From Theocolax elegans (Eukaryota > Arthropoda > Insecta > Hymenoptera > Cerocephalidae): DNA of 64,000 bases. Location: the NCBI GenBank assembly GCA_026168455.1, contig CM047431.1:3501603-3565602 (forward strand), written 5' to 3'. A program made the position numbers and the translations under genes. Below the pieces are notes generated by a model, which saw nothing but the letters and a program-made list of their open reading frames with translations, had not been told where the DNA came from and did not search any database. This document shows positions 6,614-53,132 of this stretch, piece by piece (the first letter of the stretch is position 1; each line of letters begins with the position of its first letter).

Positions 6614-7118
6614 TTGAAATAAAATGAATTTATCGTTCGGTGATATGTATATGTGTAAATTATATAATATCGGTCTCTCCGAACTAAATGTTTATTTTAG
6701 AATAAAGTAGGCCTATCGTACTCTTTGTCCACTATGGTTGGTGGAATTTCCCAGAGCACGGCCTTTTAAAATAATTAAAGGCGTTTCGTCCTCGATCTCC
6801 AGCTTGGACTCCTCAGTAAGGAACTGGATATCTTACCTTAGACGCCTGTCGCAAGATGAACCGCGACGCCAGCTAGATGTTCTGCGGCTATATATAGAAA
6901 AGAGACGACGATCTCTCCAACGAGTGTAGAGAGATAGTCGTCTCCATCTGGTGGTGGGAAAAACCACCAGCCAGAGAGACGAAACGCCTTTAATTATTTT
7001 AAAAGGCCGTGCTCTGGGAAATTCCACCAACCATAATGGACAAAGAGTACGATAGGCCTACTTTATTCTAAAATAAAGCATTTCGTTCGGAGAGACCGAT
7101 ATTATATAATTTACACAT
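6614..7118. mobile_element. Inverted-repeat element carrying a hammerhead ribozyme, with 13-bp target duplication
   Basis: Flanked by the direct repeat AGAGATAGAAAAT (6601-6613 and 7119-7131). Arms of about 135 bp start at 6651 and end at 7118, and share TCGGTCTCTCCGAAC and the phrase TGGTTGGTGGAATTTCCC. The ~190 bp between the arms is strongly structured. It holds a hammerhead ribozyme at 6780-6846, a hairpin pairing GAGACGAC with GTCGTCTC at about 6903-6945, and a CTGGTGGT/ACCACCAG hairpin at about 6949-6971. A 37-bp stretch (6614-6650) lies outside the left arm. No ORF is convincing. The variable-length 13-bp duplication suggests target-primed insertion as in Penelope-like elements or SINEs, not cut-and-paste. 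Confidence 0.65.
6780..6846 (-). ncRNA. Hammerhead ribozyme, type III
   Basis: Read on the minus strand: stem III GGCGT followed by the cleavage-site C; stem I TAAGG/CCTTA closed by a 14-nt loop; core CTGAGGA (fits the invariant CUGANGA); stem II GTCC/GGAC closed by a 14-nt loop; core GAAA; stem III CGCC. All invariant core positions are present and stem II closes with the required G-C pair. TCCAG in loop I can pair with CTGGA in loop II, the tertiary contact typical of active natural hammerheads. Stem III is the open stem, making this type III. Predicted from sequence only, but the match is complete. Confidence 0.85.
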
Positions 7119-7599
7119 AGAGATAGAAAATATTTGTAAAGAAGTTGGTAAAGAGTCTATGAAAGCAGCTATCGAGCAAATATATGATTCAACGAATCAG
7201 AATTGCCATATAAGTGTATCAGATGATAGTTCTTGGAGGAAGCGAGGATCCAATTCTCTTCAACATGTTCCAAGTTTGACACTGCATGAGAATGGAAAAG
7301 GAATTGACGTTTCTCCAAAGCAATCTATTTGCGGAGCATGTGAATTGCGATCAGAAGAAGGCACAGAAGAATATAGAGAATGGTACAACGTACATCAAAC
7401 TAATTGCTCCGCGAACCACACTGGTAGTTCTGGCAAGATGGAAGTAGATGGAATTGTAGAAATGTTTCAAAGAGCTGAATCACTTTATGGCATAAAATAT
7501 GCTAATTATATTGGAGATGGAGACTCCAAAGTTTATAAAGCTTTGTGCGATGTTAAACCTTATGGAAAAGATGATTTTTATTCCACTGGAGCATATTGA

Positions 7600-12327: not shown

Positions 12328-13121
12328 CAGTATATTTTTTTAATGTACATGTATTATCTAAAATAACAGAAAATCAACTTCAAGAATCAGTTTCTTTATA
12401 AAAGAGGAATAAAATTTTTTCAAACTACAAGAATACTTAGCTATTATTGAATATTAATGCATTATTATATGGATTTTAACAAATATTTTGATAAAAAATC
12501 ATATACTATATTATATGATTATAATTTTTTTATAAGCATTAAATTTAATTAAAATATGTAAAGAATGCAATAAAAACAAATACTGTTTGACAGTTGTGTA
12601 CAATATATCTTTCTCTCTCTCTCACATGACAAGTCTTTCATAAGATTATTGATTTTTCGGATAGCCTTGTCACGTGATAGAGAAGAGAGAGGCATATATA
12701 GTGTTACAGCTGTTAATGGAAGTGTGCACCAGCCACACGTTTGTAGTTCAGTTTTAAGCTATTATAATATCAAGTAGAATTATATATCAATTATAATTAT
12801 ATATATATATATATACAATATAATTATATAGTATCTAAATAAAATAAGTAAAAGAAATAAGTGGTTTATAAAACTGCATGAACAAATTATATCAGATAAG
12901 TATCTGCATAACCTTAAATTTATATTTTGTTTATGTCAAGAAATTGATTCTTTGTTTCCATTTCAGCATAACCAATGTGTCAACACTTAGATATACATGA
13001 TTTGCAATATACGGATAAAATTGGATCAACAAGTGTTTTCTTATGTTCAGTGTATTTGTGCTTAGTGTGATATTATGTGGTTGAAGTTATTTTATGTGTA
13101 TTTGTGAAAGTGTTACAAACC

Positions 13122-13600
13122 TCAATATGCTCCAGTGGAATAAAAATCATCTTTTCCATAAGGTTTAACATCGCACAAAGCTTTATAAACTTTGGAGTCT
13201 CCATCTCCAAATAATTAGCATATTTTATGCCATAAAGTGATTCAGCTCTTTGAAACATTTCTACAATTCCATCTACTTCCATCTTGCCAGAACTACCAGT
13301 GTGGTTCGCGGAGCAATTAGTTTGATGTACGTTGTACCATTCTCTATATTCTTCTGTGCCTTCTTCTGATCGCAATTCACATGCTCCGCAAATAGATTGC
13401 TTTGGAGAAACGTCAATTCCTTTTCCATTCTCATGCAGTGTCAAACTTGGAACATGTTGAAGAGAATTGGATCCTCGCTTCCTCCAAGAACTACATCTGA
13501 TACACTTATATGGCAATTCTGATTCGTTGAATCATATATTTGCTCGATAGCTGCTTTCATAGACTCTTTACCAACTTCTTTACAAATATTTTCTATCTCT
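13122..13600 (-). pseudogene. Transposase C-terminal half, inverted copy
   Basis: Reverse-complement copy of the transposase segment at 7119-7599, starting at the edge of the second ribozyme element. It has picked up frame-breaking changes. TAATTGG in place of the sequence coding YIGDG shifts the frame near 13212, and the start region differs near 13490. It retains the DSSWRKRG-type block only in part and cannot encode a working enzyme. Confidence 0.65.
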
Positions 13601-14065
13601 ATGTGTAAATTATAATATCGGTCTCTCCGAACTAAATGTTTATTTTAGAATAAAGTAGGCCTATCGTACTCTTTGTCCACTATGGTTGGTGGAATTTCCC
13701 AGAGCACGGCCTTTTAAAATAATTAAAGGCGTTTTCGTCCTCGATCTCAGCTTGGACTCCTCAGTAAGGAACTGGATATCTTACCTTAGACGCCTGTCGC
13801 AAGATGAACCGCGACGCCAGCTAGATGTTCTGCGGCTATATATAGAAAGAGACGACGATCTCTCCAACGAGTGTAGAGAGATAGTCGTCTCCATCTGGTG
13901 GTGGGAAAAACCACCAGCCAGAGAGACGAAACGCCTTTAATTATTTTAAAAGGCCGTGCTCTGGGAAATTCCACCAACCATAATGGACAAAGAGTACGAT
14001 AGGCCTACTTTATTCTAAAATAAAGCATTTCGTTCGGAGAGACCGATATTATATAATTTACACAT
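13601..14065. mobile_element. Second copy of the ribozyme-bearing inverted-repeat element, at the pivot of inverted duplication
   Basis: Same element as 6651-7118 but lacking the 37-bp left extension. The transposase sequence abutting it is the same on both sides, in opposite orientation (TCTATCTCT on the left, AGAGATAGA on the right). It therefore sits exactly at the axis between the inverted copy (10531-13600) and the direct copy (14066 onward). Internal structure, including the two hairpins, is retained. Confidence 0.65.
13728..13794 (-). ncRNA. Hammerhead ribozyme, damaged copy
   Basis: Copy of the 6780-6846 ribozyme with two one-base changes. The core reads GAAAA before CGCC (one extra A beside stem III), and loop II is 13 nt because one C was lost from CTCCAGC. 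Stems I and II and CTGAGGA are intact. Reduced or no activity is expected, unless these are assembly errors. Confidence 0.65.
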
Positions 14066-14546
14066 AGAGATAGAAAATATTTGTAAAGAAGTTGGTAAAG
14101 AGTCTATGAAAGCAGCTATCGAGCAAATATATGATTCAACGAATCAGAATTGCCATATAAGTGTATCAGATGATAGTTCTTGGAGGAAGCGAGGATCCAA
14201 TTCTCTTCAACATGTTCCAAGTTTGACACTGCATGAGAATGGAAAAGGAATTGACGTTTCTCCAAAGCAATCTATTTGCGGAGCATGTGAATTGCGATCA
14301 GAAGAAGGCACAGAAGAATATAGAGAATGGTACAACGTACATCAAACTAATTGCTCCGCGAACCACACTGGTAGTTCTGGCAAGATGGAAGTAGATGGAA
14401 TTGTAGAAATGTTTCAAAGAGCTGAATCACTTTATGGCATAAAATATGCTAATTATATTGGAGATGGAGACTCCAAAGTTTATAAAGCTTTGTGCGATGT
14501 TAAACCTTATGGAAAAGATGATTTTTATTCCACTGGAGCATATTGA
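14066..14546 (+). pseudogene. Transposase C-terminal half, direct copy
   Basis: Identical in protein to the 7119-7599 segment, with DSSWRKRGS and YIGDGDSKVY retained and the same premature end at STGAY. The N-terminal half is absent from this copy because duplication started at the ribozyme element. Confidence 0.65.
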
Positions 14547-18221: not shown

Positions 18222-18657
18222 AAAAAAAATTTTGGTAGTTTCCACGTACACCTTTTTACAGGTTTTTACGTATCCCCTAGACCTTTATTCCATTTCCAAT
18301 TTTACCCCCTCTTTACCCCACCTTCTCGCATTCGCCCGGGGTTATGCCCGTGGAGAGAGGGAAAACCTGTGGCCAAACCCGTTGGGATAAATGCCATTAA
18401 GGAAAACCTCCTCCGAGAAGGGCGGTGTATTCGAGAACAATTCTGTTTGGGTGGCAAGGTCACATTGCGTAGACTTTAACACCGAAACCGAATGCCTCAC
18501 ACCTCCTGCTCACGTTGTCGAATGTGAAAAAACACCTAACCGATCATTTAAGCTAAGTCCGAGAACGGTCACCCATCCAAGTGCCAACCGCGCTCGGTGC
18601 TACTTAACTTTCATGACCGGCCAAGGTCCGTTTCCGCCACTCCGCCACCGTGTCGGT
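18222..18657 (-). mobile_element. 5S-rRNA-derived SINE, copy 4
   Basis: Same SINE with flanking TATAATGTATATA (18209-18221 and 18658 onward). It is followed by another Kolobok right end with TTAA at 18773-18776. Confidence 0.7.
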
Positions 18658-18984
18658 TATAATGTATATATATTATGTAAAAAAAATAAATTTGTAAGCA
18701 GAATTGAAAAAAAAAATTTATACTAATAATAATTGTTTATTTATTTAAAACACTTAACCCAGGCTGGACCCCTTAACCCCAAAGAGTAAAAACTGAACCT
18801 TTAATGAGTAATTTGTTGACTTTACTACTCTTTATGAACAAAACTACACCTTTTAAACGACTAAATAACTAAAATTACTCTTTGAACAGTGTAAAATATA
18901 AAAATTACTCTTTACAATAGGGTAAAAAGTAAAAATTGCAGTCCTTTAAAGAAAGAAAAAAGTGGAACGAATATAATCTGAATG

Positions 18985-19388
18985 GACTTCCCAGTTACTC
19001 GAGTTAATATTATACTATTAATTTCCAATCACTGGAGTTGTAGTGAATTTCACCATGTTTAAACAATTATTAATTTATATCCTTTATACTGAAGTCACTG
19101 GGAAGACTATGATTATACGCAAGCTATCTTCTATATATAAAGTTTCTATTTTACTTCATGAATATAGGCTCTCAAAAGACTTTCTGGCAAATAAATAAAA
19201 CTAAAACTAACCAATTGATAACAATTCATAACATATGATAGCTTGCATATAATCTGAATGGACTTCCCAGTTACTCGAGTAATATAATAATTGTACTATT
19301 CATTTTCAGTGACTGGAGTTGTAGTGAATTTTATCATGTTTAAACAATTATTAATTTATATCCACTATACTGGAGTCACTGGGAAGTC
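18985..19388. mobile_element. Pair of ~125 bp mini-MITEs around a hairpin
   Basis: Two related non-coding units at 18985-19107 and 19261-19388 share the ends GACTTCCCAGTTACTCGAGT and, as reverse complement, ACTGGAGTCACTGGGAAGTC (18 of 20 match in the second unit). Between them GATTATACGCAAGCTATC (19111-19128) pairs with GATAGCTTGCATATAATC (19238-19255). Both units are preceded by ATAATCTGAATG. A truncated unit lies in the palindrome spacer near 10450-10530. Confidence 0.5.
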
Positions 19389-19695
19389 TATTAAGAAATA
19401 ATAAAATAAAATATTTTAAAATTTAGATTTTCCAACTATTAGAAAAATTCGTGAATTTATTGCTTTTTTACACTATAAGTTATATGATAAATGAATTTAT
19501 TGATCTTTACAAGCCAAAGAAACATTCCTCACATCTCAAGTAAGGCGGACTGTATTAATACCAGCCACTTTAGAAACCTCACAGGATGAGTGTTTTTGAA
19601 AAAAGACTAAGACAAGCTAATTCAACAAAAATATAAAATTTAATTGATTGTAGTATAAAATTAATAAAAACTTAATAAAACGGAAAAAAAAAAAT

Positions 19696-19766
19696 TTTGT
19701 ATTTCGCCCTGAGTATGCCTGGTGGGCTCATCAGTAGAGTCCAGGCATCTCGTCTCTAGATACAAA
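19696..19766 (-). ncRNA. Hammerhead ribozyme, type III (left arm)
   Basis: Exact reverse complement of the ribozyme at 20187-20257. It has the same 7-bp stem III, 5-bp stem I, 4-bp stem II, CTGATGA and GAAA core and 14-nt loops. It is transcribed away from the palindrome centre if read as a ribozyme on the minus strand. Confidence 0.9.
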
Positions 19767-20186
19767 TGACAGATATAAAAATTTTTGAAAACCAGCTCTA
19801 TCCTGACGAGGAAGACATGGGGTATATATGCAATGCAGAAATGGTATTAATACAGTCCGCCTTACTTGAGATGTGAGGAATATTTCTTTGGCTTGAAAAG
19901 ATCAATAAATTCATTTATCATATAACTTATAGTGTAAAAAAGCAATAAATTCACAAATTTTTCTAATAGTTGGAAAATTCAAATTTTAAAATTATATGGC
20001 ATTGGATCACGAATATGCCTTATGTAACAATATTCTGCCGACTAAGACATTAGTTCTATGTAAGTGCGTTAGGGGGCTACCTGTCAATATGTGGCACTTA
20101 TTAAAGTTTGCTATCGGTAGGGCATATATACCCCATGTCTTCCTCGTCAGGATAGAGCTGGTTTTCAAAAAATTTTATATCTGTCA

Positions 20187-20257
20187 TTTGTATCTAGAGA
20201 CGAGATGCCTGGACTCTACTGATGAGCCCACCAGGCATACTCAGGGCGAAATACAAA
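20187..20257 (+). ncRNA. Hammerhead ribozyme, type III (right arm)
   Basis: Order on the plus strand: stem III TTTGTAT, cleavage-site C at 20194; stem I TAGAG/CTCTA (20195-20199 with 20214-20218) with a 14-nt loop; core CTGATGA (20219-20225); stem II GCCC/GGGC (20226-20229 with 20244-20247) with a 14-nt loop; core GAAA (20248-20251); stem III TACAAA. ATGCCTGG in loop I (20205-20212) is perfectly complementary to CCAGGCAT in loop II (20231-20238), giving an 8-bp kissing contact. Every conserved position is satisfied, and the NUH cleavage triplet is AUC. Confidence 0.92.
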
Positions 20258-20470
20258 ATTTTTTTTTTCCGTTTTATTAAGTTTTTATTAATTTTATACT
20301 ACAATCAATTAAATTTTATATTTTTGTTGAATTAGCTTGTCTTAGTCTTTTTTCAAAAACACTCATCCTGTGAGGTTTCTAAAGTGGCTGGTATTAATAC
20401 AGTCCGCGTTACTTGAGATGTGAGGAATGTTTCTTTGGCTTGTAAAGATCAATAAATTCATTTATCATAT

Positions 20471-20692
20471 AAAAATAAAATGTTCATCAAATTATGTATA
20501 ACCAAAAAAAAATATTGTGTGTCAGTCACAAATAAATATACAGTAGCTCCCTCTCGCTGCCATGTCTGAAATTCTGCGCCTGCCAATCGTTGGGAGCCCT
20601 GCACGCGTTCTTTGATCGGCTGGCACGCAACGCTGTCTTTCTATCTCACACATCTCCCATATCGCTATCTCTTTTCGCTTTCTATAGGCATA
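20471..20692. other. Short spacer
   Basis: AT-rich start, then a more GC-balanced stretch (20540-20690) with no recognisable gene. Confidence 0.3.
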
Positions 20693-36702: not shown

Positions 36703-37440
36703 TCATAGTATTATGTGCGGAAGACTGATGTATAGTCTATCTGATGTTGCTTTGTTCCAACAGCAAAATGTTTTATAAAATGGAAGAGTGGATATTTCAA
36801 TAAACTTGTAGGCATTGCTATAGTCGACCAGTTGTATGCAATAAGCATGTACAGTTGTATCAAAAAATAGACTTTTGGATGGAGATACAAGCAAATAAGG
36901 AGTATTATTTTGTAAAATTATAATTTCTCTTATCCGTCCAAATACTAATAAATCATTTGATGTTTCAGATGCTAATTCGATCACAACGAACAAATTTGGT
37001 CGATACTCTATTCCATTTACAAAAATCGATTGAGCACAAAGAGCTAACTCCGTATGAGATAAATTAAAATTTTGAAGATGGTTTCTGCTTTGCAAGCTGT
37101 CAACAATACTCAATTTAGCTGATGCTACTTCAAATCTATTAATTGGTAGATTTTTTACATTCCACTTTACGCTTTGTATACATTGGCATACTCGTATAAG
37201 TGTTTTTGGAGGATTCTTAAAATTGTGAACATTGTGAGCTCGTAATTTTAGATCAATATGCTTCCTTTCAAAGTGCATACAGTGGTACCGCACTAAAGGT
37301 CCAAATGATTCTATACATTCTCTATAGTGTTTCATGTGGTGGAACTTGTTAATTAAATTGACATTAGGAAATATTCGAATAAAGAGTATAATGAAATCGT
37401 GTATCAGAGAATCAAGATAATCATGAAGTGTTGAAAAAAC
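36703..37440 (-). CDS. Uncharacterised TE-associated protein, C-terminal part
   Basis: A 210-codon frame (36703-37335) can be extended upstream in phase to about 37440, where a stop lies. It has the phrase SFGPLVRYHCMHFERKH followed by a basic NVHNFKNPPKTLI stretch. I associate this block with an uncharacterised family common in repeat-rich insect genomes, but I cannot name a function. The C terminus has several aromatic/hydrophobic strands. There is no start codon with context at the extended 5' end, so it may be an exon or a truncated copy. It lies between the gap and the Polinton, transcribed away from the latter. Confidence 0.4.
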   Translation of the reverse strand, partial: VFSTLHDYLDSLIHDFIILFIRIFPNVNLINKFHHMKHYRECIESFGPLVRYHCMHFERKHIDLKLRAHNVHNFKNPPKTLIRVCQCIQSVKWNVKNLPINRFEVASAKLSIVDSLQSRNHLQNFNLSHTELALCAQSIFVNGIEYRPNLFVVIELASETSNDLLVFGRIREIIILQNNTPYLLVSPSKSLFFDTTVHAYCIQLVDYSNAYKFIEISTLPFYKTFCCWNKATSDRLYISLPHIIL

Positions 37441-37760
37441 GCCGTTATATTAACACAATATTATCACTGCCTTTTGGATATAAAATGTAATTAATAAATA
37501 TATTTTTTATTTGTTAATTCTATAATAGACGTTTATAACCCATTAATTTACTATAAACATAATAATAATAAGCAAATTTACGTATAATTAGCTGATAAAA
37601 CGCGGCTAGACCAGCTTATACATTGAAATCAGCTTATTACTCTGCGGAAAATATCTAGCAAAGCTCCCGCGCCGCGCCGCCGCCGCTGGTCAGCGTTTTC
37701 TTTTATATATAATTTCATATAAATACCCAGAATTCTTAGTTTTGTAGAATAGTTTAAATA

Positions 37761-38882
37761 ATGGAGACGCAGTGGATACATCCATTTACGTGTATAATCA
37801 GTGGACCAACGGGTTTTGGTAAAACTATATTCGTTAAAAAGTTTCTTCATAATCTTACCGATATTTGCGATTCAAAGTTTGATAGAGTTTTATTTTACTA
37901 TGGTGAATGGTAAGAGAGCTACAGAACAGACTTCAAGTCGGGGGGATACATCGGTAAAACAATAGAATTTCACGAGGGTCTACCGCAACCTTCCGACTAT
38001 TCTCACGACAACAATAAGAATAAATTAATAATCATTGATGACCTGATCAGAGAATCGTCAAATAACGTAGTGTTACATCTGTTTACAAAAGGAAACCATC
38101 ACAAAAATATTAGCGTAATTTTTATTACACAAAATCTGTTTCATAAAGGATTCGGACAACGAGACATATCTTTAAACGCCAATTATATCGTAATTTTTAA
38201 AAATCCACGAGATCGTGCACAGATTCAATACCTCGCTCGTCAAGTCTACCCTCAAAACCCAAAATTTTTACAAGAGGCATATTCGGATAGTACAACTCCA
38301 CTCCATGGATATCTTTTGCTAGATTTGAAACAGAGTACTCGAGAAGAAATACGATTTCGCACGTCAATCTTTCCGGACGATAGAGTGCAGTACGTGTACG
38401 TGCCAAAATACAGCTCGAAATTTCGATATGAATTGAGAAGGAAGAAAACGATGGACACTGTTAATCAAACTATGAGACAGAAAAGATCGAGGAGACAAAT
38501 AGAAGGCTGTATACCCAACCATTTCAGTAAAAAGTGCGTATCCGTGTTTAATGCTCTGTGTCACGCAGATAATAAACAACGGTTAGCTCTTATACGCTCA
38601 GCAAATAAAGAGTTAATTAACTGTATATGCGAGTGTGCGTTGAATATCTTGAAAGGTGTTGTCTCATTGAAACAGTCACAAAAATCTAAATTGAAAAGAT
38701 ATCGTAAAGTTTTGCAAAAATTGGTTGAAACAAAAAAAAGAAATAGCAACAGAAATTGTAAATATGACTGGGTAAAAAAGAAACGAGTAATTGTGCAACA
38801 AGGCGGCGGTTTCCTTCCTCTCTTGCTGGCACCAATTATAGAAACATTGATTTCTAAAATATTTGGAGGTAGTCAGCAGTGA
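37761..38882 (+). pseudogene. Polinton packaging-type ATPase fused in frame to a basic Polinton protein
   Basis: The frame from ATG 37761 contains Walker A GPTGFGKT (residues 15-22), Walker B LIIIDDL and the FITQNLF sensor-like motif. These are the signatures of the FtsK/HerA-type genome-packaging ATPases of Polintons. A TAA at 37911 (codon 51) interrupts it. From about 38450 the same frame continues into a second conserved Polinton protein of ~140 residues. That protein is Cys/Lys/Arg-rich with a hydrophobic GGGFLPLLLAPIIETLI end before the stop at 38882. Apart from the single stop the 374 codons are open. Confidence 0.7.
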
Positions 38883-38905
38883 GAGAAAATGAATCGTGCT
38901 AAAAA

Positions 38906-39586
38906 ATGGTGATGGTTCGCCAAGACGTGTTTCAAAATACAGTTCTACAACAACACCAACAACAACAAGATTACGTAAAGGACACGTCGGAAGAATGTAG
39001 AATTCAAACAAAAGGTAATGTGTTATCGCGTCTTGATGCCGAAATGCACGACATCTTATTCTCCAAGAGTATAAGAGACGAACGAGAAAAGAGTCTAAAA
39101 TATTTACAAGTATTACGTCGATATTTACACTTTAAAAATATTGAGCGTACCGTAGAAAATGAAGAAGAAGATGAAAACGAAGAGGTAAACGCAACAACAT
39201 TATCCAAACAGGAAATTATTGATACTCTTCCAAAAACATACACAAAGAAAGGCCAAATACTTCTTAAATACTGGAAAACTAATAATCTTCACCGTTTAAC
39301 TTGGAATGAATGTGGAACTGTATTAATAGATAATAAACCTATATCCAATTCTAACGTTGTAGAAATTGTAAATTACATCAGAAATAAGAAGACAGTGGAG
39401 GAACCTACAGGAGCTATTGAAATAGCTAGGTTTATATCGTTGTCTCAAACTCCTGTAAATCTTGTTGGAAACGCAAACCTGTTAAAATTGATTGAAAGAG
39501 TTTATCCCAAAAAATTGAAGAAAAAAATTAGTCATACACCTCAAGCGTCGGTAAGAGGTGAAAAGTGGTTGAGAATTGTTGCATAA
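38906..39586 (+). CDS. Conserved Polinton protein of unknown function
   Basis: 226 codons, complete, opening MVMVRQDVF with a Gln-rich run, then a coiled-coil-like charged middle, an acidic ENEEEDENEE patch, and a C-terminal domain with LTWNECGTVLIDNKPISNSN. The latter pattern (TWN...G...I.GSN) is recurrent in arthropod Polintons next to the integrase. I would not assign it a lettered name. It is the only gene in this Polinton without a visible lesion. It sits two codons ahead of the integrase start. Confidence 0.5.
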   Translation: MVMVRQDVFQNTVLQQHQQQQDYVKDTSEECRIQTKGNVLSRLDAEMHDILFSKSIRDEREKSLKYLQVLRRYLHFKNIERTVENEEEDENEEVNATTLSKQEIIDTLPKTYTKKGQILLKYWKTNNLHRLTWNECGTVLIDNKPISNSNVVEIVNYIRNKKTVEEPTGAIEIARFISLSQTPVNLVGNANLLKLIERVYPKKLKKKISHTPQASVRGEKWLRIVA

Positions 39587-39588
39587 AA

Positions 39589-40576
39589 ATGCCTTACGTT
39601 AAAAAATATTACGATGTTTCCCATGCTAATGGTTACACTGGTGCTCGTCAGTTGATCGAAAAAAAAAATCGTAAAGAAAAGAATCGGATATACGAATGGT
39701 TGAGTAATCAAGATGCATACACTTTACACAGACCAATTCGTCGTAAGTTTCCTAGATTATATTACAACGTTTCTAACGTCGACGATTGTTGGGAGATAGA
39801 TTTATGTGACATGCAATCGCTCAAATCTGATAACGATGGATACTGTTACATACTGGTAATAATAGACATTCTCAGTAAGTATGCATGGATAGAGGTATTG
39901 CGTAATAAAACTGCAAAAACAGTATCCGATGCTTTTCAAAATATACTTTCGAGATCAAATGGAAGAGTACCTGTATATGTACAGTCTGATGCAGGGAAAG
40001 AATTTGTTGGATCTAATTCTCAAGAATTTTGCAAGAAAAAGAGGATTTTGTTTCGTGTACAGATATATCGATATAATTGATAAAATTGTTAACGCATACG
40101 ATCACACAAGACACACCGGTACTCAAATGATATCGGCTAATGTTACCGTTTACAATGCTTCCGAAGCGAGAAAAAATTTATAGAAACGTGCTTTAAATCA
40201 ACGAAAGTCATCTCGTTCCTATATATACAAAGTGGATGATTATGTCTGTATCAGTCGTGCAAAAGGTACCTTTGAAAAAGGTTATGAAAAAAACTACAGT
40301 GAAGAAATTTTCGAAATCTCTCGCGTTTCTGAGCGACAAAATTTATACACTTATGAACTAACAGACTTAAATAATGAATTGATTGATGGTTTTTTCTACC
40401 CTGAAGAATTAGTTTTGGTAGGTGACAAACGTGTACGCAAAGGATCTGAATTTAAGATTGAATGCATCATCGAAAGTAAAGGGCGTAATTCAATCAAACA
40501 AGTATTAGTAAAGTGGTTAGGTTATCCCCACAAATTTAACTCTTGGGTGAAAGCCAGTGAAATTAATCAGATTTAA
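39589..40576 (+). pseudogene. Polinton retroviral-type integrase with chromodomain, catalytic region partly deleted
   Basis: ATG 39589. The rve core shows the first Asp in WEIDLCDM and the second in QSDAGKEF. After about residue 158 the frame fails. The sequence jumps to the helix VNAYDHTRHTG in another phase, so the segment with the third catalytic residue (Glu) is missing, and further shifts follow. The C-terminal part is readable from 40232 to 40576 and ends in a chromodomain-like block (IECIIESKG...VLVKWLGYP...NSWVKASEI), typical of Polinton integrases. It is non-functional as written. Confidence 0.75.
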
Positions 40577-41399: not shown

Positions 41400-41797
41400 A
41401 TGATCCAATTCAATTCGTATTACAACCATCAGATTGGAGGTGGTAATGTTCATCACGTTTTTGCCGGTTCACCGTACCAACGGGGACATGGTATTGGCAG
41501 TTTTCTAAGCGGTCTTTTTAGATAAGTTTTACCCTACATTACCAGTGGAGTTAAAGCAGTAGGTAAAGAAGCATTTAGAACAGGACTAAACGTTTTGGAT
41601 GATGTTAACAATAGTGGAATGAAAATGAAGGAGTCAGTAAATATTCGTATGCGTGAATCTGGACAAAATCTCAAGAGAAGAGCAGCCAATGAAATTCCTG
41701 AACTAATGAAAGGGTCAGGATATAAACGTCAAACTAGGAAAAAAAGACGTGAGTTACTCAAGAACCGGTTGAGAGCACACAATAAAACTAAACAAGT
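41400..41797 (+). pseudogene. Polinton minor virion-like protein, truncated by Gypsy junction
   Basis: ATG 41400. It has the pattern GGGNVHHVFAGSPYQRGHGIGSF, then a TAA after SGLFR. It continues in the same frame with GVKAVGKEAFRTG and a basic KGSGYKRQTRKKRREL tail. This order (Gly-rich N terminus, amphipathic middle, basic tail) is known from the Polinton gene following the penton-like one. Its 3' end runs in frame into retroelement gag at about 41798. Confidence 0.55.
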
Positions 41798-41799
41798 AA

Positions 41800-42512
41800 G
41801 TGTAAATAATGCAAAAGAATGGTGGTATTTACAAGAACATGAGATAAATGATTTCAATGATTTCAAAAATAAATTCATAGAACGATATTGGAATTCTTCT
41901 ACTCAACGGCAAACACGTAGGAATATTGAATTTGGGCAATATTTTGCAGGAAAAATGAGTAGGGTAGAATATGCTACACATATGTTTGGTTTAGCAAAAG
42001 AATTAAATTATGAATTTACTGAAGTTGAGTTAGTTGAGAAAATTAGTGAACATTATGAACGTTCAATTAAACATTCAATTTTAGGACAACAAAATAAATC
42101 AAAAGAAAACTTATTAAAAATTTTAGCAGATTTTGATTCTGATTTTGATAAAAACCGAAAATACGATAAGATTACAAATCGATATGAAAACCATATGCCT
42201 AATCAACGCGAAGGGTATAAAACTTATGAAAATAAAAATATAAATTCAAATATACCAAAAGAGAATCAAAATTATACTGCATATCAAAATAAAATGCATA
42301 GGGAAGGTTATCAAAGAAATAGTACGCCCATGATTAATTCTATACAAACATATAAAAATAAAAAATGTATTGTTAAACAAGGATCGGAGAATAAAAAATT
42401 AATTGAACAGACTAATAACAATTATGATAAAATTGAAGTTCTAGCAGATATACATAATTCAAATGATATTCAAAATGAAATAACTAGTAGAGTATATAAT
42501 CAGGGAAACTAA
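41800..42512 (+). pseudogene. Gypsy gag, 5'-truncated and fused to Polinton sequence
   Basis: From AKEWWYLQEHEINDFNDF onward the frame has the Ty3/Gypsy gag capsid pattern (W-Y, then FKNKFIERYW, then the arginine-rich RQTRRNIEF). A long Asn/Lys-rich tail without clear zinc knuckles follows. The N terminus and 5' LTR are absent because the frame begins inside the Polinton gene. The 305-codon open frame from 41595 is therefore a chance chimera of two elements. Confidence 0.6.
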
Positions 42513-42597
42513 AAGGAGTTGTATTTTCCTACTCGGAAACCCCTTTAAAAATTAATGAAAATGCAACTGCAGGGAAAAATAATAAATTAACTCAAAA

Positions 42598-43077
42598 TTG
42601 AATACAGTTGAAAAAATAAATAAAGAAAATTTTATGATAAATACGATATATGAAGATCCACGTAAAGATCTAATTTACGATATTGAACCGGATAATAATA
42701 ATAAAGAATTTGAAAATAATAATGCTCTTACTTGTCCAGAAATTAAAATAAAAATTGAAAATATTGAAATTAACGCTTTAATTGATACAGGTAGTGAAGT
42801 TACTTGTATCTCAGAAGAATTTTATATTAAAAATATACAATCATTAGAAAAGATTCCTACTTTACCAATATCGGGAAAAATTATAAAAGGTGCTACCAGT
42901 TTAAAATCTACGCGAATAAATAAGCAAATACTAGGAAATGTTAAAATAAATAATTTAAAAACACAAATAATTTTCTTAATTATACCGAAATTAGTTAAAT
43001 CATGTATTATTGGGTATGATACTCAAAAAGAATTAAAAATGTGTATGGATACTAAAAAAAGAACAAATTACTTTTGA
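42598..43077 (+). CDS. Gypsy aspartic protease segment
   Basis: Contains ALIDTGSEVTCIS, the retropepsin active site (DTGS), and a downstream IIGYD that matches the second conserved G(Y/M)D turn. The frame ends at 43077 before reverse transcriptase, so pol is broken here or read in another phase. Confidence 0.6.
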   Translation: MNTVEKINKENFMINTIYEDPRKDLIYDIEPDNNNKEFENNNALTCPEIKIKIENIEINALIDTGSEVTCISEEFYIKNIQSLEKIPTLPISGKIIKGATSLKSTRINKQILGNVKINNLKTQIIFLIIPKLVKSCIIGYDTQKELKMCMDTKKRTNYF

Positions 43078-43119
43078 AACAAGGAAGGAAACAAGTAAAA
43101 TATATAATAACTCAAAATT

Positions 43120-44934
43120 AATAAAATTAATAAAAATGAATATGAATCCTTAACTATTCAATATGATAATGGGGATGAAAAAATTAAAAATTATAAAATT
43201 GAGGAAAATTCAAAATTAGAAGATTTTCCGAATTATAATATAAAAACCGTCGATATTGACGAGAAAATTGCTTTGTGTAATCAAATAAATGATATGCAAA
43301 AATTCAAATTAAAAGAAGTTATAACATACTATAAAGATGTTTTTCAAGAAAGCCCTGGATTATTGCATAATTTTAAATACAAATTAATACTAAAAAATAA
43401 TTATGAGTATTATAAAAAACCATACCCGATACCGATTAAATACTGAGAACAAGTAAGCATCGAAGTAAACAAAATGTTAGAACAAGGTATAATTCGTAGA
43501 TCAAATAGTAATTTCATAAATCCATGTGTTATTGTACCTAAGAAAGATGGTTCTATTAGAATATGTTTAGATGCCAGAAATTTAAATTTAAATTTAAAGA
43601 ATGATTACGAGTCTCCACCGGGAATAGAAGAAGTATTAGCACGATGTAAAAATCATGTATGGATGTCTAGTTTTGACATGACGGCTAGTTTTAACCAAAT
43701 TCCTTTAGTAGAAGATAGTAAACAATACACTGCATTTATATGTGATAATAAGGTATATGAATATAATGTAGTTCCATTTGGAATAAAAATTAGCAGTGCA
43801 GCTCTTTTGAGGGGATTAGATAAAGTCATAACGGCATTAAATGATTTTTTATTAACGTTTGTAGACGATTTGTTTGTTTTTTCTAAAACATTTGAAGAGC
43901 ATTTGATGCATCTCGGAATATTATTCAATCGATTAATAAAAGCCAATTTAAGGTTAAATTTTAAGAAATCAAATTTTGTACAAAAAGAAATTAAATTTTT
44001 GGGAAATATTATTACATATAAGGGAATAAAACCCGATCCAGAAAAAATACAAAATATCAAGAATTTTAAAGTACCTAAAAATGTAAAAGAATTGCAAGGT
44101 TTCTTGGGTTTTGTTAATTTTTATTCGAAATTTGCTAAGAATTATGCCCAAGAGACTGTTCCATTGTTAAATTTATTGAAAAAAGATGTAAAATTTATTT
44201 GGAAAGAAGAGCATTTTAAAGCTTTTAACAAAATAAAGAGTCTTTTTAATGAAAATGTAATTTTAAAAACAGTTGATATTAATAAACCGTTTATACTAAC
44301 AACGGACGCGAGCGACATAGCAATTGCCGGAATTCTTTCTCAAATTGATGAAGAGGGCGAAGAAAGAATTGTAACTTGTATTAGCCGTACATTAAAAGCG
44401 AGCGAAAAGAATTATTTCACAACTGAGAAAGAATTACTTGCAATTGTGTGGTCAATTCATAAGCTAGATATATTTTTAAGAGGAACTAAAGAGCTTGTAA
44501 TTCGAACTGATCATGAAGCTTTGAGTTTTTTGCAGAAAAGCAAATTCGGTAATTTAAGATTGACACGATGGATTTTATCGATCCAAGATATTGATTTTAA
44601 ATTAGAATATCTACCGGGTGTAAAAAATGCAGCTGCAGACTACTTAAGTCGAATGAATGAAGATGATCAGTGTAATATAAAAAATTCAGAAATTGTTATT
44701 GCAGCAATTATGAAACATGCAATTGATACAGAATTGATAAAAAATTTTAAAGATTTAATTAAAATACAAAATGAAGATGAATTATGTCTAAAAATCAAAA
44801 AACAAATAGAAAGCTATGAGAGTTTCTGTAGATTTAAATATATAAATAACTATTTGTGTAAAGTAGCACATAAGGAAAATAAAATAGTAATACCAAAGTG
44901 TATTATAGTTAATTTAATACAATATTATAGTTAA
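43120..44934 (+). pseudogene. Gypsy reverse transcriptase and RNase H
   Basis: One TGA (43444) lies just before the main open stretch at 43474. RT motifs include GSIRICLDARNLN, SFDMTASFNQIP, PFGIKISSA and FVDDLFVFS (catalytic DD with F in place of Y). The RNase H block has LTTDASDIAIAGILSQ, YFTTEKELLAIVW and TDHEAL, which is Ty3/Gypsy order. A 22-bp tandem duplication at about 44901-44944 shifts the frame before the integrase. Base composition is very AT-rich with strong A/T third positions, unlike the Gypsy at 59-64 kb. Confidence 0.8.
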
Positions 44935-44937
44935 TTT

Positions 44938-45978
44938 AATACAAAATTTACATATTTATTATGGACACGTTGGTTCAAGAAAAATTTATTTAATGATTTT
45001 GGTGTATTTTTATTTTCCCAAATTGCGAAAAAAATGTGCAACAACGTTAAAAACGTGTGATATTTGTCAAAGGACTAAATGTTTAACTGTATCATATAAA
45101 GAGGAAGTACAACCAATAATAATTGAAAAACCGGGTGATCTGTTATCCATTGATTTTTATGGTCCATTAATACCGTCAACTAGTGGAGTTTGCTATATTT
45201 TATCCACTATAGATGTTTTTAGTAAATTTGTTGTACTTTATCCTATTAAAAAAGCAAATACGGCAATTGTGATAAATAAAATAATAAATATATTATAGAT
45301 ATAGGTAAACCAAAAGCTATAATATCTGATCATGGGTCACAATTTGCGAGTGTTGAATGGGAACATTATTTGAAAAAACAAAATATTAAAATGATATTTT
45401 CAAGTATAAGACACCCACAATCAAATATTATAGAGCGATCTCATAGAGAAATAGGTCGAATATATAGATCGATTTTAAATAAGCATACTGGATGGGCTAA
45501 TGAAATCCATTTTGCTGAAAATGTACTAAATAATACGCATCACGAAACTACGGGTTTTCCGCCAGTAGAATTACAATTTCCAATCAAAAGCGAAAGATTT
45601 TGGAATAATTGTGTAAAATCGAATCCAATAAATATTAAAGAAGATTATGAGGATGAAATTGCTAAAGCAAAAGATAAAATGCATAAATTCATCATAAATA
45701 GAGCGAATAATAAAAATATAAATAGAAAAATATATAAATTTAATATAAACGATTTAGAGTTAATTAAAGCATTACACGTATCAAATGCGAATGAAAAGCG
45801 ACTTGCGAAATTTATGTACCTATGCGAAGGTCCATATAGAATAATTAGCAAATTTGGAACCGACACTTATTTGTTATTCGATGACAAAATGAAATTAGAA
45901 CGGGGAAAATTTCATATTAATCAACTGAAACCATATTATATGGAAAAAGAATCTGAAAATATTTTAGAAAAGAATTAA
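44938..45978 (+). pseudogene. Gypsy integrase, frameshifted
   Basis: The zinc-binding N terminus (H in YYGHVGSRK, CDICQRTK) and first catalytic Asp (LLSIDFYGPL) read to 45298. After a frame change the second Asp (IISDHGSQF) and the Glu (SNIIERSHREIGR) follow to 45978. All three catalytic residues exist, but in two frames. Confidence 0.75.
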
Positions 45979-47580: not shown

Positions 47581-50500
47581 TCAATCGGGCACCGCCCAGA
47601 GACCCTGCCAAACAGCAAGTATTCTCTGGACATCCCAACTGGGGATATCTCCTGAATCAATTAGAAATTCACCTGTGAGGCGCCATCTTCTTGTCATGAT
47701 TCTGGGGCATTCACATAAGATGTGTAGAGGTGTTTCGTTTGCCTCCTTGCACATTCGGCATAATGGATCTGTTTCCAGTCCCATTTTATACCTATGGTAT
47801 CGCAAATCTCCATGTCCAGTAAGTATGTCCATTAGCTTGCGAGCTGTCTTTCTGCTAAGTTTCCTAAGCCCTTCTTCCCAGTGTCCGCTTATTGCGTTTC
47901 CGAGTGCGGCTTTAGCTTGTCTGCATCCTGCAGTTTTTACCCAAGCCCTTTGGTGTTCCTTCACCAGCCATTCCTTTAATAATTCTATGAGGTGGCTATG
48001 TGGCATCTTCATCATCATGCTTGGTTCCGCATGTTTTCCATTTGTACCTATCTTTGCTAGGTCATCGGCTATCTCGTTACCACGTATGCCTACATGACTT
48101 GGTATCCATGTTAGCGTTAGCCGCTTATTCAACTCTGCCAGTCTATTTAGTGTCTTATGACATTCCCAAATTAGTCTGGACTTAGTGGTGTGACCATTCA
48201 GACTCTGTAACACAGTTCTGCTGTCCGAGTAAATGTATATCTCTTCGTCTTTGCAATTCTCCTGTGCCGCTTTAGCACATTGCAGGATTGCAAATGTTTC
48301 CGCTTGGGAAATGGTATTGTATTCCTTTAAGGAATATATCCTACCCTTCCCATTTTTTCTGCAGTATACCCCTGCTCCGACTCCCTGGATATTCTTGGAC
48401 CCATCAGTATACCAGAGTTCTTTGCCCTCCGGCACCCTAACACGTCCTTGACTCCAGTCATCTTTGCTAGGCAGACTGACTCTGTATCTCTTATCGAATA
48501 GGAACTCAGTGCTGCATCTATCAGTTCCCTCGTATAAGTTCTCTCTTAGATTTCGCGGGAGTGTACTTAGGAGTCCCCTGTCCGCCCGTCGATCTAAGAG
48601 ATTTCTAACTCTTAAGTATCCTTTTATGGCTTCTGACTTAAGAGTGAGCTGAAAGGGCTCAATATTCGTTATGACCCCCATAGCTTGTACTGGCGTGGTT
48701 CTTAGAGAATTGGTGATGCAGCGCAGAACCAATCCTTGTACCCTTTCCAGCATTTGGTTCGCAGTTTTCAAACCTGCTCGCTTCCACCAAATCACTGACG
48801 AATACGTGAGTTTTAGTTTCAGAATTGCTGTGTAAATCCACATCATGGTTTCTGGTTTAAGACCCCAGTTCAAGTGCAGAGCTCTACGTGTTTGCCATAG
48901 TACTCTTATAACTTTATTACACTGATTCTCAAGGTGCTCTTTCCAGTTTAACTTACTGTCAAGAATGACACCTAGATATTTAGCTTTTTCTTTTATTTCT
49001 AGCCGTTTTCCTCCATATTCGAGGTGTTTTATGCTTGTTTTCCACTTATATTTACGTGTAAACACCATAACTTCCATTTTTTCCGGGTTAACCGATAGTC
49101 CACCTCCTTGGCACCACTTATATACCTTATTCAAGGCATTTTGCATGATGTCAAATAGTGTTTCTAAAAATGGTCCTCTAACTATTATTGCTAGATCATC
49201 TGCATATCCTACAACCTCACATCCCGTGTTGGTTAGTAGGCATAATAGTGTGTTCATTACAAGATTCCAGAGGGATGGGGAAATAACCCCCCCCCTGTGG
49301 GCATCCCGTGTTCACCCAGCCAGTTACCTTGGTGTTACCCTTGGTCATTACCAGCTTTCTGTTTGATAACATGAGTTCGACCCAGTCAGCAACTGGCTGA
49401 GCTATTCCATGTCTCCTCATTGCCTCCTTGATTACTCTTTTGGAGGTATGGTTGAAAGCTCCTTCTATGTCTAAAAAGACCACTAGAGCGAAGCCTCCGT
49501 TTTCAATTTGTTCTTCAATCAGGTTCACTATTTTGCACAGAGCAGTCTCAGTAGAGTGTCCTGCTCTGTACGCATACTGATCCCTATGAAGTGGTCGTTC
49601 TTTTAAAGGTTTATCTTTAATATGTCTATCTATGAGCCTTTCCATTGTCTTCAGCATAAACGATGTAAGACTTATAGGTCGGAAGTCTTTAGGAGAAGTA
49701 TAGCTCCCCTTACCTGCTTTCGGAATGAACGTCACTCTCGTTCCCTTCCAACTTTCTGGAATATGGCATAATTCCGGACTTGCCCTAATAAGTCTGGTCA
49801 CTGGACGGATAATGCACTCCCCCGCCCTTTGTAATAGTGCGGGGTAAATACCAAATCCAGTCCTGGTGACTTATATGGCCCAAAAGATCCGATGGCCCAC
49901 CTGACTTTGTCCTCTGAGGCAATTTCGGTCCCCAGCACACTGCATGATCCGGTTTGGATCACCGCATGCCGGTTTCCCGTTCCGTAGTCGTTTGACTCAT
50001 GAACTTCCATCGCCCCTTCCCCTTCTTTCGAGAAATCCGGGTAGAAGGATTCGATCAGGCGGTACAACGTTTCTTCGTCCGTCATGGTGTATTTCCCATT
50101 TGGCAGTTTAAGTGCTCCCAATATAGCTTCCGGATTTTTTGACAAGATCTTGTCCAACCGGGCTGCCTGTGAGCCTTTTTCTATATCGCTGCAAAAGTTG
50201 GCCCATGATTCTGCTTGTGCCTTCCTAATTGCTGCTCGATAGCTGTCTCTTTTACTTGCGTAATGATTCCACTCGTTTTTTTTGGGCCAGCTTGTAGGTT
50301 CTCCTTACTTGTTTCTTGAGACACTCTAGGTTCTCGTTCCACCAGTAGGTTTTATCTCGCTTACCCACCAATGTGGGTCTACAGTTGTTCTCAAAAGCTG
50401 AGATAATTCCTTTATTTAGTTTATCAGCAGCTTCTTCAAGCTCCTTCCAGTTTCTTATATGTTCTGGAAAATTTGCTAGTGAGCTGCTTATTTCTTCCTT

Positions 50501-51232
50501 GTAGGTTATCCAATTTGTCTTCTTCGGTTTCCTGGTCCATGTTCTAGGATTTGTACCAGGTTCCACTAACTCGAAAACAATTTTGGCATGATCAGATAGT
50601 GTCGGTTCATCGGATACCCTCCACCTCTTGATCCTATTTGTAATTTCTCCAGTATATAACGTGATGTCCAATACTTCTGCTCTAAATTTATTACAGAATG
50701 TTGGCGTTGTACCAGTGTTTAGAATATCTAGTTTGGTTGTGGCTAGATATTCTACCAGTTCCTCTCCTCTCCTATTGATGTCTGTGCTCCCCCACAGTAT
50801 GTGATGTGAGTTAGCGTCACAGCCTATTAGGAGCGGCAAGTTTTTCCTCTCACAGAAGGTAATTAACCTTTTAACTTCCGTGGGTGGATTTACCTCTCCA
50901 TCATATGGAAAGTACGCTGAGGCAATGACTATGTTTCCAATGCCTTCCGATTCCGTCCTAACCGCTGTCAGGTCTCTTGTACAGAAATCCATCAGCGGGG
51001 TTACATTTACTCCCTTAGTGATGATACACGTTCTGGGCGTCTCAGCTTGCATGTCCCTGTAACAAACAAGCCCCTTTCCCCTTAAACCCTTGATTGTTCC
51101 TCTCACCGTCCATGGTTCTTGGACCAGTGACAGGCCTGTGTGCATCTCTGCCAAACCCTTACGCAATAGTGCAGAAGAGTCTTTGCAGTGATGCAAGTTA
51201 ATTTGTGAGATTTGCAGCGCCTTGAAGGTCAT
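47581..51232 (-). pseudogene. I-like ORF2: endonuclease, reverse transcriptase, RNase H
   Basis: Starts at 51232 with an APE-type endonuclease (INLHHCK, VQEPW, GCDANSHHILWGS, and LSDHAKI). RT follows with FIPKAGK, the Gly-Cys-Pro-Gln-Gly block and YADD near 49205. RNase H follows with TDGSKNIQGVGAG near 48405 and WIPSHVGIRGNEIADDLAK. The C-terminal CCHC-like segment reads CRMCKEANETPLHILCECP. The reading frame changes three times, near 50278 (A8 run), 49858 and 49289 (G9 run). All changes are at or next to homopolymers and no other stop was noticed. The protein could be intact in the genome if these are base-call errors. Confidence 0.75.
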
Positions 51233-53132
51233 TATTTCGAGCTTCCCGGCACTGCTGCCTCTTTATCAGACTCCGCTACCGCCGGCGCGTGTACTTTGAA
51301 AGTGACACGCTCCAGTGAGTAGAAGGGTCTGCAATCTAGAGCCTGAAGGGCTCTAGCTTGGGACTCCGGCATCTGCACCAGAAGAAAGTTGTCCTTCGCT
51401 GCAGCACCGTCGGTAGCCCCCTTATCGCATTTTACGACCCGCCATGTTGCGGTATTTAGCGTCGGATTGTACCGCATCAGCCTCTGAAGAACCAGCTCCG
51501 TGGGTTTCGGTGCTCCCGGTATCCACGCGCTGGCCTTCACCAGCCTCTGCAGCACCTCCGTTCCGCTGACTGTCAGAGCAGGACCCCGCCAAGATTTTAG
51601 TCCGGGCACGATCCCACTCAGCCAATCCGCGGACCGTTGATCCTCTGCAATTATCACAAACACTCCCCCCCTGCAGAAGGACGCAACAAACTTTGGCAGC
51701 TGCTCAGGAGGAAGGACATTTGTCTCCTCCTCCAGAGCATTCCTGAAGTCTTCAAACTGTCCTGTAGTAAGAAGCACCTCAGGATATTCTGCTGATGTCA
51801 CGACCCTCGACAGAGGGTTCGTTCTCTGTGCTGTTGTAAGTCCCACACTACATTTCGGCTTTTCAGCACTCTGAGTGTTACTTACCTGTGCCGGCTTGTT
51901 TTTATGCCGTTTTTGTGTCCGCGGGTCCTCTGGCGGCGTGTCCTTCCCTCTTTTCCCCATAAGAGGCGTTGAGGGAGCCTATTAGGAGCGGCAAGTTTTT
52001 CCTCTCACAGAAGGTAATTAACCTTTTTAACTCCGGGGTGGATTACCTCTCCATCATATGGAAAGTACGCTGAGGCAATGACTATGTTTCTCCAATGCCT
52101 TCCGATTCCGTCCTAACCGCTGTCAGGTCTCTTGTACAGAAATCCATCAGCGGGGTTACATTTACTCCCTTAGTGATGATACACGTTCTGGGCGTCTCAG
52201 CTTGCATGTCCCTGTAACAAACAAGCCCCTTTCCCCTTAAACCCTTGATTGTTCCTCTCACCGTCCATGGTTCTTGGACCAGTGACAGGCCTGTGTGCAT
52301 CTCTGCCAAACCCTTACGCAATAGTGCAGAAGAGTCTTTGCAGTGATGCAAGTTAATTTGTGAGATTTGCAGCGCCTTGAAGGTCATTATTTCGAGCTTC
52401 CCGGCACTGCTGCCTCTTTATCAGACTCCGCTACCGCCGGCGCGTGTACTTTGAAAGTGACACGCTCCAGTGAGTAGAAGGGTCTGCAATCTAGAGCCTG
52501 AAGGGCTCTAGCTTGGGACTCCGGCATCTGCACCAGAAGAAAGTTGTCCTTCGCTGCAGCACCGTCGGTAGCCCCCTTATCGCATTTTACGACCCGCCAT
52601 GTTGCGGTATTTAGCGTCGGATTGTACCGCATCAGCCTCTGAAGAACCAGCTCCGTGGGTTTCGGTGCTCCCGGTATCCACGCGCTGGCCTTCACCAGCC
52701 TCTGCAGCACCTCCGTTCCGCTGACTGTCAGAGCAGGACCCCGCCAAGATTTTAGTCCGGGCACGATCCCACTCAGCCAATCCGCGGACCGTTGATCCTC
52801 TGCAATTATCACAAACACTCCCCCCCTGCAGAAGGACGCAACAAACTTTGGCAGCTGCTCAGGAGGAAGGACATTTGTCTCCTCCTCCAGAGCATTCCTG
52901 AAGTCTTCAAACTGTCCTGTAGTAAGAAGCACCTCAGGATATTCTGCTGATGTCACGACCCTCGACAGAGGGTTCGTTCTCTGTGCTGTTGTAAGTCCCA
53001 CACTACATTTCGGCTTTTCAGCACTCTGAGTGTTACTTACCTGTGCCGGCTTGTTTTTATGCCGTTTTTGTGTCCGCGGGTCCTCTGGCGGCGTGTCCTT
53101 CCCTCTTTTCCCCATAAGAGGCGTTGAGGGAG
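50823..53132 (-). repeat. 1155-bp tandem duplication inside the I-like element
   Basis: 50823-51977 and 51978-53132 are almost identical. They span the 5' part of ORF2 and most of ORF1. The junction at 51977/51978 joins ORF1 sequence to mid-endonuclease sequence with two or three shared bases. The outer copy of ORF2 (52082-52387) is thus a 101-codon stub. Confidence 0.85.
51232..51960 (-). CDS. I-like ORF1, 3' copy created by tandem duplication (5'-truncated)
   Basis: Identical in protein to the C-terminal 242 residues of the ORF1 at 52387-53485. It ends in the TAATG that opens ORF2 (stop of ORF1 overlapping the ATG at 51230-51232). It contains the DUF4780-like domain found in ORF1 of insect non-LTR elements (GGVFVIIAEDQRSADWLSG, WRGPALTV, LVKASAWIPG). 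Its 5' part is replaced by duplicated ORF2 sequence. Confidence 0.65.
   Translation of the reverse strand: MGKRGKDTPPEDPRTQKRHKNKPAQVSNTQSAEKPKCSVGLTTAQRTNPLSRVVTSAEYPEVLLTTGQFEDFRNALEEETNVLPPEQLPKFVASFCRGGVFVIIAEDQRSADWLSGIVPGLKSWRGPALTVSGTEVLQRLVKASAWIPGAPKPTELVLQRLMRYNPTLNTATWRVVKCDKGATDGAAAKDNFLLVQMPESQARALQALDCRPFYSLERVTFKVHAPAVAESDKEAAVPGSSK

Follow-up and report, generated by a model that had tools for sequence, protein, structure and literature searches.

Metazoan non-LTR retrozymes are short AT-rich tandem repeats with one hammerhead ribozyme per unit; they are flanked by duplications of more than 4 bp and share their genomes with Penelope-like elements (PLEs) (PMC7229834; this and all other papers are cited from partial texts). 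They are proposed to move as circular RNA, and PLEs are named only as "a strong candidate" for the enzyme that moves them (PMC7229834). Their hammerheads are type I and their RNAs 170-400 nt long (PMC7229834). Plant LTR retrozymes are non-autonomous elements with a type III hammerhead and a reported circular RNA intermediate (PMC4918200); they have LTRs, a PBS, a PPT, and 4-bp duplications (PMC7229834).

Type III hammerheads are unusual among animals, a point made by an earlier, sequence-only reading of this DNA and in agreement with PMC7761336 and PMC7229834. They are reported from termite and dipteran genomes; those of termites are isolated motifs in which helix I bears an additional hairpin and the contact spans 4 nt (PMC7936874). 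According to the excerpt cited, nothing similar came up when hymenopterans and other groups were searched by structure, and dipteran work is referred to as in preparation (PMC7936874).

PLE insertions have a characteristic shape. Purified PLE protein cuts and extends both DNA strands, and reverse transcription starts at two adjacent internal sites, on both strands alike; the stretch between these sites has been equated with the 30-40-bp "tail" of genomic PLE copies (PMC11167929). In genomic copies the pLTRs are inverted, one of the pair optionally bears a 31-bp tail, and the duplications measure 8-10 bp (PMC3846280). From these partially available descriptions, the shape of the insertions described below is already known for PLEs.

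Here, we analyze a palindrome within a 64,000-nucleotide stretch of Theocolax elegans DNA (the window). Most probably, it arose by insertion of an element that resembles animal retrozymes, is non-coding and non-autonomous, and carries a type III hammerhead; PLE enzymes would move it in trans, using as template an RNA that has cut itself and is probably circular. Like metazoan retrozymes, the element consists of short, AT-rich, apparently non-coding tandem repeats with one hammerhead each, has target duplications longer than 4 bp, and resides with PLEs. It differs in that the hammerhead is type III with 8-12-bp complementary loops, the units are 545 or 509 nt long, and insertions are head to head with PLE tails. 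The element would function as animal retrozymes do, and its ends are of the PLE type; taken strictly, however, the published retrozyme definition does not cover it (PMC7229834, in part). With termite, dipteran, and delta-like type III hammerheads (PMC7936874), it shares an insect genome and potential Watson-Crick contact of the helix I and II loops; in contrast to the termite motifs, it forms mobile tandem units whose terminal loops are complementary over 8-12 bp. Its insertions, inverted and tandem with duplications of about 10 bp, show none of the LTR architecture of plant retrozymes, as judged by arrangement and duplication length. The literature consulted, in partial texts and with few subscription journals covered, gave no account of type III hammerhead retrozymes in Hymenoptera or of a strict end rule.

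Type III hammerheads in a head-to-head insertion

Both arms of the palindrome carry the same 71-mer, at the coordinates that the sequence-only reading had given (Table 1). In an Rfam search of 2 kb, each copy aligns to RF00008 end to end. The core is AUC / CUGAUGA / GAAA, with stems I, II, and III of 5, 4, and 7 bp; stem III reaches 8 bp once the next bases are included. The invariant core, the 7-bp stem III, and the 8-bp complementarity of loops I and II, all claimed earlier, were confirmed in the sequence, and in both arms the conserved core is accompanied by a stem III that opens to the flanks. The type III model, which had been suggested as a check, matches both arms over its full length, though at 36.6 bits the matches lie under the RF00008 gathering cut-off of 48.5 bits, and an Rfam search at gathering cut-offs gave no match across the window. 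The low score is probably due to loops that exceed the model's loop length. We conclude from the sequence that the motif is a real type III hammerhead, for which cleavage is predicted.

Rfam places the motif in one polarity of the unit only and gave no ribozyme in the other at the E-values listed. Weak Rfam matches to a miRNA and a Brucella sRNA were dismissed as far under their own cut-offs, and one scan of viral_contigs with the family-1 ribozyme sequence gave no match.

Table 1. Features of the hammerhead insertion, in window coordinates.
Feature	Position	Strand	Basis or remark
Whole insertion, two partial 545-nt units head to head, sense strands outward	19413-20472	.	Reference unit L009:4352-4896 mapped to window
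Target-site duplication AAAATAAAAT, left	19403-19412	.	10-bp duplication
Target-site duplication AAAATAAAAT, right	20472-20481	.	First base common to the element's end
Left arm, long ("tail") end outside	19413-19831	(-)	Unit 343 down to 1, then 545 down to 473
Head-to-head junction, ten bases outside unit alignment	19832-19841	.	Gap between blast segments
Right arm, short end outside	19842-20472	(+)	Unit 193-545, then 1-276
Type III hammerhead, left arm	19696-19766	(-)	RF00008 36.6 bits, E 9.7e-6; predicted cleavage 19759/19758
Type III hammerhead, right arm	20187-20257	(+)	RF00008 36.6 bits, E 9.7e-6; predicted cleavage 20194/20195
Loop I kissing segment ATGCCTGG, right copy	20205-20212	(+)	8-bp complement of loop II
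Loop II kissing segment CCAGGCAT, right copy	20231-20238	(+)	Complement of loop I
Loop I kissing segment, left copy	19741-19748	(-)	Identical 71-mer
Loop II kissing segment, left copy	19715-19722	(-)	Identical 71-mer

The palindrome extends beyond the span first recognized, with a 10-bp duplication outside its arms. Both hammerheads point outward, and each arm finishes on the outside with a sense-3' end, which corresponds to unit position 343 on the left and 276 on the right. The palindrome had been read as a special pair of ribozymes; instead, it appears to be the head-to-head product of a Penelope-type insertion, a form shared by the three coding PLEs examined, which were picked as inverted pairs. 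Self-cleavage of transcripts from either end, as expected earlier, is not assured: a transcript entering from a flank would meet the antisense motif before the sense one, and the two would tend to pair. A GIY-YIG profile search listed no match within the insertion, where the longest ATG frame has 94 aa.

The repeating unit is 545 nt long (reference L009:4352-4896, numbered from the cleavage site). Units repeat head to tail at many loci, with one hammerhead per full unit. A second family has a 509-nt unit (loci L029-L036 and L046), with a homologous hammerhead and 12-bp complementary loops. The pattern CTGATGAGN{10,35}CGAAAYAC matched the 658-Mb genome 1590 times (755 + 835), versus four times (1 + 3) in a reversed control; the motif is therefore not a chance one, and as the census relies on a single sequence pattern it misses copies with an altered core. 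Among the first 100 listed of the 1590 places, 53 belong to family 1 and 47 to family 2 (read by eye), and neighbors less than 2.5 kb apart were head to head in 15 cases, in the same direction in 22, and never tail to tail. Whether the arms always occur paired had been put forward as a check: they do not, as single-orientation copies and tandem arrays occur besides head-to-head pairs.

Units are more alike within loci than between them. The mean difference is 0.6% within a locus (19 pairs) and 3.2% between loci (332 pairs), as expected if each array is copied from one monomer. Comparing the two arms within an insertion gives a divergence of 2.4% (16 insertions), as against 3.9% for arms across insertions (234 comparisons). 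In L043, which is 12% from the reference unit, the insertion's own arms differ at only 2 of 279 sites. Two adjacent units are 100% identical, which backs the earlier suggestion of recent activity. L014 and L022 are one insertion at a duplicated locus on two contigs, one copy having four full hammerheads and the other two; thus, array length changes after insertion.

The 545-nt unit looks non-coding. The longest ATG frame of the reference unit has 141 aa (L009 4698-5123, from unit position 347 to 227 of the next unit); it starts just outside the long end site and spans the hammerhead. Across 27 full units, this frame has 92 distinct substitutions spread evenly over the codon positions (31/29/32), of which 19 are synonymous, in line with 272 of 1278 possible changes. 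Moreover, 19 of the 27 units have a gap in the frame, its length varies among units, and a Pfam search found no match to it. On these grounds, we rejected the frame as a gene.

Loop complementarity and apparent decay of the ribozyme

The complementary loops are supported by covariation. The hammerheads of families 1 and 2 align in register, and the ATGCCTGG/CCAGGCAT columns covary with the homologous columns of family 2. Double-sided changes between sequences occur in 10 of 28 base pairs (stems plus loop contact), although five of the six sequences compared are from family 2, and most of these changes are therefore single events between the families. Pairing is found in 95.8% of cells; neither this value nor the 10 pairs was reached in any of 500 shuffles, while further pair types were matched by 18 of 500. 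In family 1 the loop contact spans 8 bp; in family 2 it spans 12 bp, although some variants of that family lack the full 12-bp pairing (90.3% of cells pair). Family-2 hammerheads score up to 42.9 bits against RF00008, also under the 48.5-bit gathering cut-off.

The predicted nested fold is not the hammerhead. In all four variants folded, the loop segments pair with each other as a hairpin, in whole or in part, in the minimum-energy structure. The nested fold has -23.2 versus -11.0 kcal/mol for the hammerhead stems alone in family 1, and -36.3 versus -13.9 kcal/mol in the main family-2 variant. Once the loop duplex (-12.8 in family 1, -25.0 in the main family-2 variant) is added and penalties are ignored, the pseudoknotted hammerhead is about as stable as the nested fold in both main variants.

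As so little energy separates the two states, a simple kissing contact has a live rival: loop complementarity may serve the same element as an OFF switch, instead of or besides such a contact, with the nested hairpin shielding the circle from reopening. In the predicted fold, this hairpin would dissolve stems I and II, and folding the whole unit gives it again. A kissing helix of 12 bp formed by two closed loops also appears sterically demanding, and the ribozyme in metazoan circles must be blocked by something (PMC7229834, in part). Nevertheless, the loop duplex energy brings the pseudoknotted hammerhead to near-equal stability, type II hammerheads are accelerated by pseudoknots (PMC3088659, in part), and the covariation is compatible with both readings. 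We regard the OFF switch as possible, yet on the unlikely side.

Inserted copies of the hammerhead appear to decay almost freely. Among 62 full family-1 copies from 21 sources, the core is intact in 53, the 8-bp loop pairing in 54, and every stem pair in 27; many stem losses affect the terminal pair of stem III alone. Random mutation of core and loops in genomic copies had been named as an argument against the ribozyme. Core and loop pairing have each mostly been kept, but core, loops, and all stem pairs together persist in only 19 copies. Variable locus-sites make up 53 of 1491 (3.6%) in the hammerhead and 509 of 9931 (5.1%) in the rest of the unit, with a Fisher p of 0.008 for sites that are not independent, and some other stretches of the unit vary as little as the hammerhead. 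With variability barely below that of the remaining unit, near-free decay is the likely reading, and the purifying selection on genomic copies suggested earlier finds no support.

The same observation raises the question of whether the units are satellite DNA that unequal crossing-over has spread, in which case the hammerhead would be a relic without a current RNA cycle. Some clusters are indeed satellite-like (L026, L027), unit number differs between the segmental duplicates L014 and L022, and hammerhead variation is just slightly under that of the rest. Yet a satellite of this kind is improbable given dispersed single insertions with target duplications and retrotransposon-type ends, a whole core in 53 of the 62 copies, and compensating changes between families 1 and 2.

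Asymmetric ends and Penelope-like elements

Each head-to-head insertion that could be scored has one short and one long end. In head-to-head insertions, both outer ends are sense-3' ends of the unit. Across the 24 independent insertions scored (16 of family 1, five of family 2, and three coding PLEs), one end always stops at an inner site, while the other extends 26-104 nt beyond it. In family 1, short ends fall at 272-284 (240-241 in L009 and L012) and long ends at 338-348 (312 in the divergent L043), with one of each in 16 of 16. The corresponding ranges are 288-295 and 323-331 in family 2, where all five insertions have one of each, and, in reference coordinates, 1654-1657 and 1683-1684 in the coding PLEs (L040-L042; 3 of 3). 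With an independent choice of site on each strand, at least half of all insertions should have equal ends, and the chance of 24 of 24 would be at most about 6e-8.

End positions played no part in choosing the scored loci. Twenty stretches were sampled from among the best matches to the window's own 571 bases, so that old, divergent family-1 copies are under-sampled. L029-L036 are the eight best RF00008 matches, L040-L042 were picked as inverted GIY-YIG pairs, and L043-L046 as minus-then-plus neighbors from the core-pattern census. We left out L022 (the same insertion as L014, at a duplicated locus), L031 (a duplicate of L030 with a rearranged left flank), L032 (one end only), L033 (the same locus as L034), L029 (no ends), L010 and L018 (right arm truncated), and L013, L017, L025, L026, L027, and the second cluster of L028 (not head to head, or duplicate). 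The right end of L043 was scored as long from a blast alignment that reaches 312 in this 12% divergent copy.

Insertions are accompanied by target duplications. In 23 of 25 insertions, a set that includes the duplicate L022, shared words resembling duplications reach a score of 6 or more, as do 3.2% of control pairs drawn across loci; L021 has no convincing duplication and L012 a marginal one. Inverted arms with a flanking 10-bp duplication, as in the window copy, could also suggest a fold-back or miniature inverted-repeat DNA transposon, whose transposase recognizes the inverted ends and which carries the hammerhead as a passenger. However, arm lengths and junctions differ among the insertions examined (the duplicate pair L014/L022 apart), whereas a cut-and-paste transposon would keep its interior constant; the tandem units have one hammerhead each, and none of the 24 scored insertions has both ends at the same unit position. 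This origin is thus very improbable. Least probable of all are genomic copies of an infectious viroid-like or delta-like circular RNA replicating from RNA to RNA: type III hammerheads with pseudoknotted loops do occur in delta-like RNAs of toad and termite (PMC7936874, in part), and the unit folds somewhat better than shuffles (z -2.24; 4 of 100 shuffles equal it), but Rfam finds the hammerhead in one polarity only, the 141-aa frame has neither coding constraint nor a Pfam match, and head-to-head insertions with PLE tails point to a DNA-encoded retroelement.

Coding PLEs are present in the same genome. GIY-YIG matches number at least 98 at E <= 0.001, not necessarily all of them PLEs, and several form inverted pairs. 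All three coding PLEs that we examined have the head-to-head form, their two ends lying 26-30 nt apart, and the ORFs of both that were tested contain RVT_1 and GIY-YIG domains. For one PLE ORF, the top named relatives among the best 120 listed are from Leptopilina and Trichogramma, which suggests a parasitoid wasp as host. L041 has a 28-nt tail at one end and a clear target duplication, cggatttca. It also has two copies on each side of the inverted center, the inner ones partial, with arms 99.9% alike. The PLEs examined carry a short CTGATGAG...GAAA motif, which we take to be the minimal type I hammerhead described for PLEs; Rfam did not report this motif in L041.

The end anatomy of the scored insertions matches the PLE "tail", the stretch between two internal reverse transcription start sites. 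Inverted and tandem arrangement, target duplications of about 10 bp, and two alternative ends 30-40 bp apart, with an optional tail at one end, characterize PLEs (PMC3846280, PMC11167929, both in part), and the hammerhead-unit insertions show the same arrangement, duplications, and one-end tail. The unit differs from PLEs in having no RT or GIY-YIG ORF, the coding PLEs lying at separate loci, and in its extended type III hammerhead, in place of which the PLEs examined carry the short motif. In addition, the ends of family 1 are mostly 61-76 nt apart versus 30-40 bp in PLEs (PMC3846280, PMC11167929, both in part). While the shape is known for PLEs, the strictness of the end rule in this 24-insertion sample and its occurrence on non-coding hammerhead units are new.

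These features suggest the following cycle for the retrozyme-like element, in the order we propose. The tandem array would be transcribed, and each 545-nt unit would cut itself at its own hammerhead. The monomer may then be closed into a circle, or a multimeric transcript may serve as template. A Penelope-type RT/GIY-YIG protein from co-resident partner PLEs would take the unit RNA as its template and cleave the target on both strands, at positions offset by about 10 nt. The target 3' ends would each prime antisense cDNA at one of two internal sites (near unit positions 276 and 345), one site per strand. The cDNAs may run more than one lap around the template before the two are joined head to head at arbitrary points. 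Only products of the last steps are visible in the sequence.

Several observations count against this explanation. The short ends of L009 and L012 are not at 276, and the long end of L043 aligned only to 312. L010, L013, L017, L018, L025, L026, and L027 are truncated or single-orientation and were not counted. The nested fold differs from the hammerhead, only 19 of 62 copies keep core, loops, and all stems, and L021 has no convincing duplication. We found no convincing shared sequence between the unit and the three coding PLEs (best E 0.004, 29 nt at 83%). Furthermore, ribozyme mutants of an Anolis PLE had no effect on insertion in vitro (PMC11167929, in part).

The short-plus-long pattern might reflect an obligately asymmetric enzyme pair on one RNA per Penelope-type insertion, starting at the inner site on one strand and the outer site on the opposite strand, both circling the ribozyme-made circle. 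We put this forward tentatively, at somewhat less than even weight. If true, the asymmetric-pair rule would cover PLEs as well as the type III retrozymes mobilized by them, and the identity of the enzyme behind animal retrozyme movement would be settled. The end rule itself, provided that a larger census bears it out, limits the ways in which PLE RNPs can prime the two strands. Non-coding hammerhead units bear a PLE-specific end mark in a genome with coding PLEs of near-identical arms, which makes the question of what moves retrozymes testable with purified PLE protein and unit RNA. The known range of the type III hammerhead also widens, to an animal retroelement in which its loops are complementary over 8-12 bp.

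Other repeats in the window

The hammerhead element adjoins another repeat. At 18971-19396, two direct copies, 276-281 bp apart, of a repeat with inverted ends TCTGAATGGACTTCCCAGT ... ACTGGGAAGTC lie next to it. The stretch at 18530-18660 presumably resembles a 5S-rRNA-derived SINE; Rfam at the gathering cut-off gave no match there.

The window also holds several transposon-related sequences. Near-identical Mutator-like transposase fragments occur in both orientations at 7072-7599, 13073-13531, and 14019-14546, with PF20700 found on the first, the sole one scanned. A run of ORFs at 36703-40080 includes an integrase core (PF00665), and we take it to be a Polinton/Maverick-like element. An LTR-retrotransposon-like pol at 41526-45978 has RT and RNase H-like domains and a weak integrase match under the cut-off. 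On the minus strand, a non-LTR retrotransposon at 47581-53524 has endonuclease, RT, and RNase H domains. Outside the window, L037 contains a nuclear copy of mitochondrial COI at 1420-2013, which presumably runs into COII. Sequence comparison of this COI copy yielded distant relatives only, the best named one an Octopus record at 71%, which we did not regard as informative.
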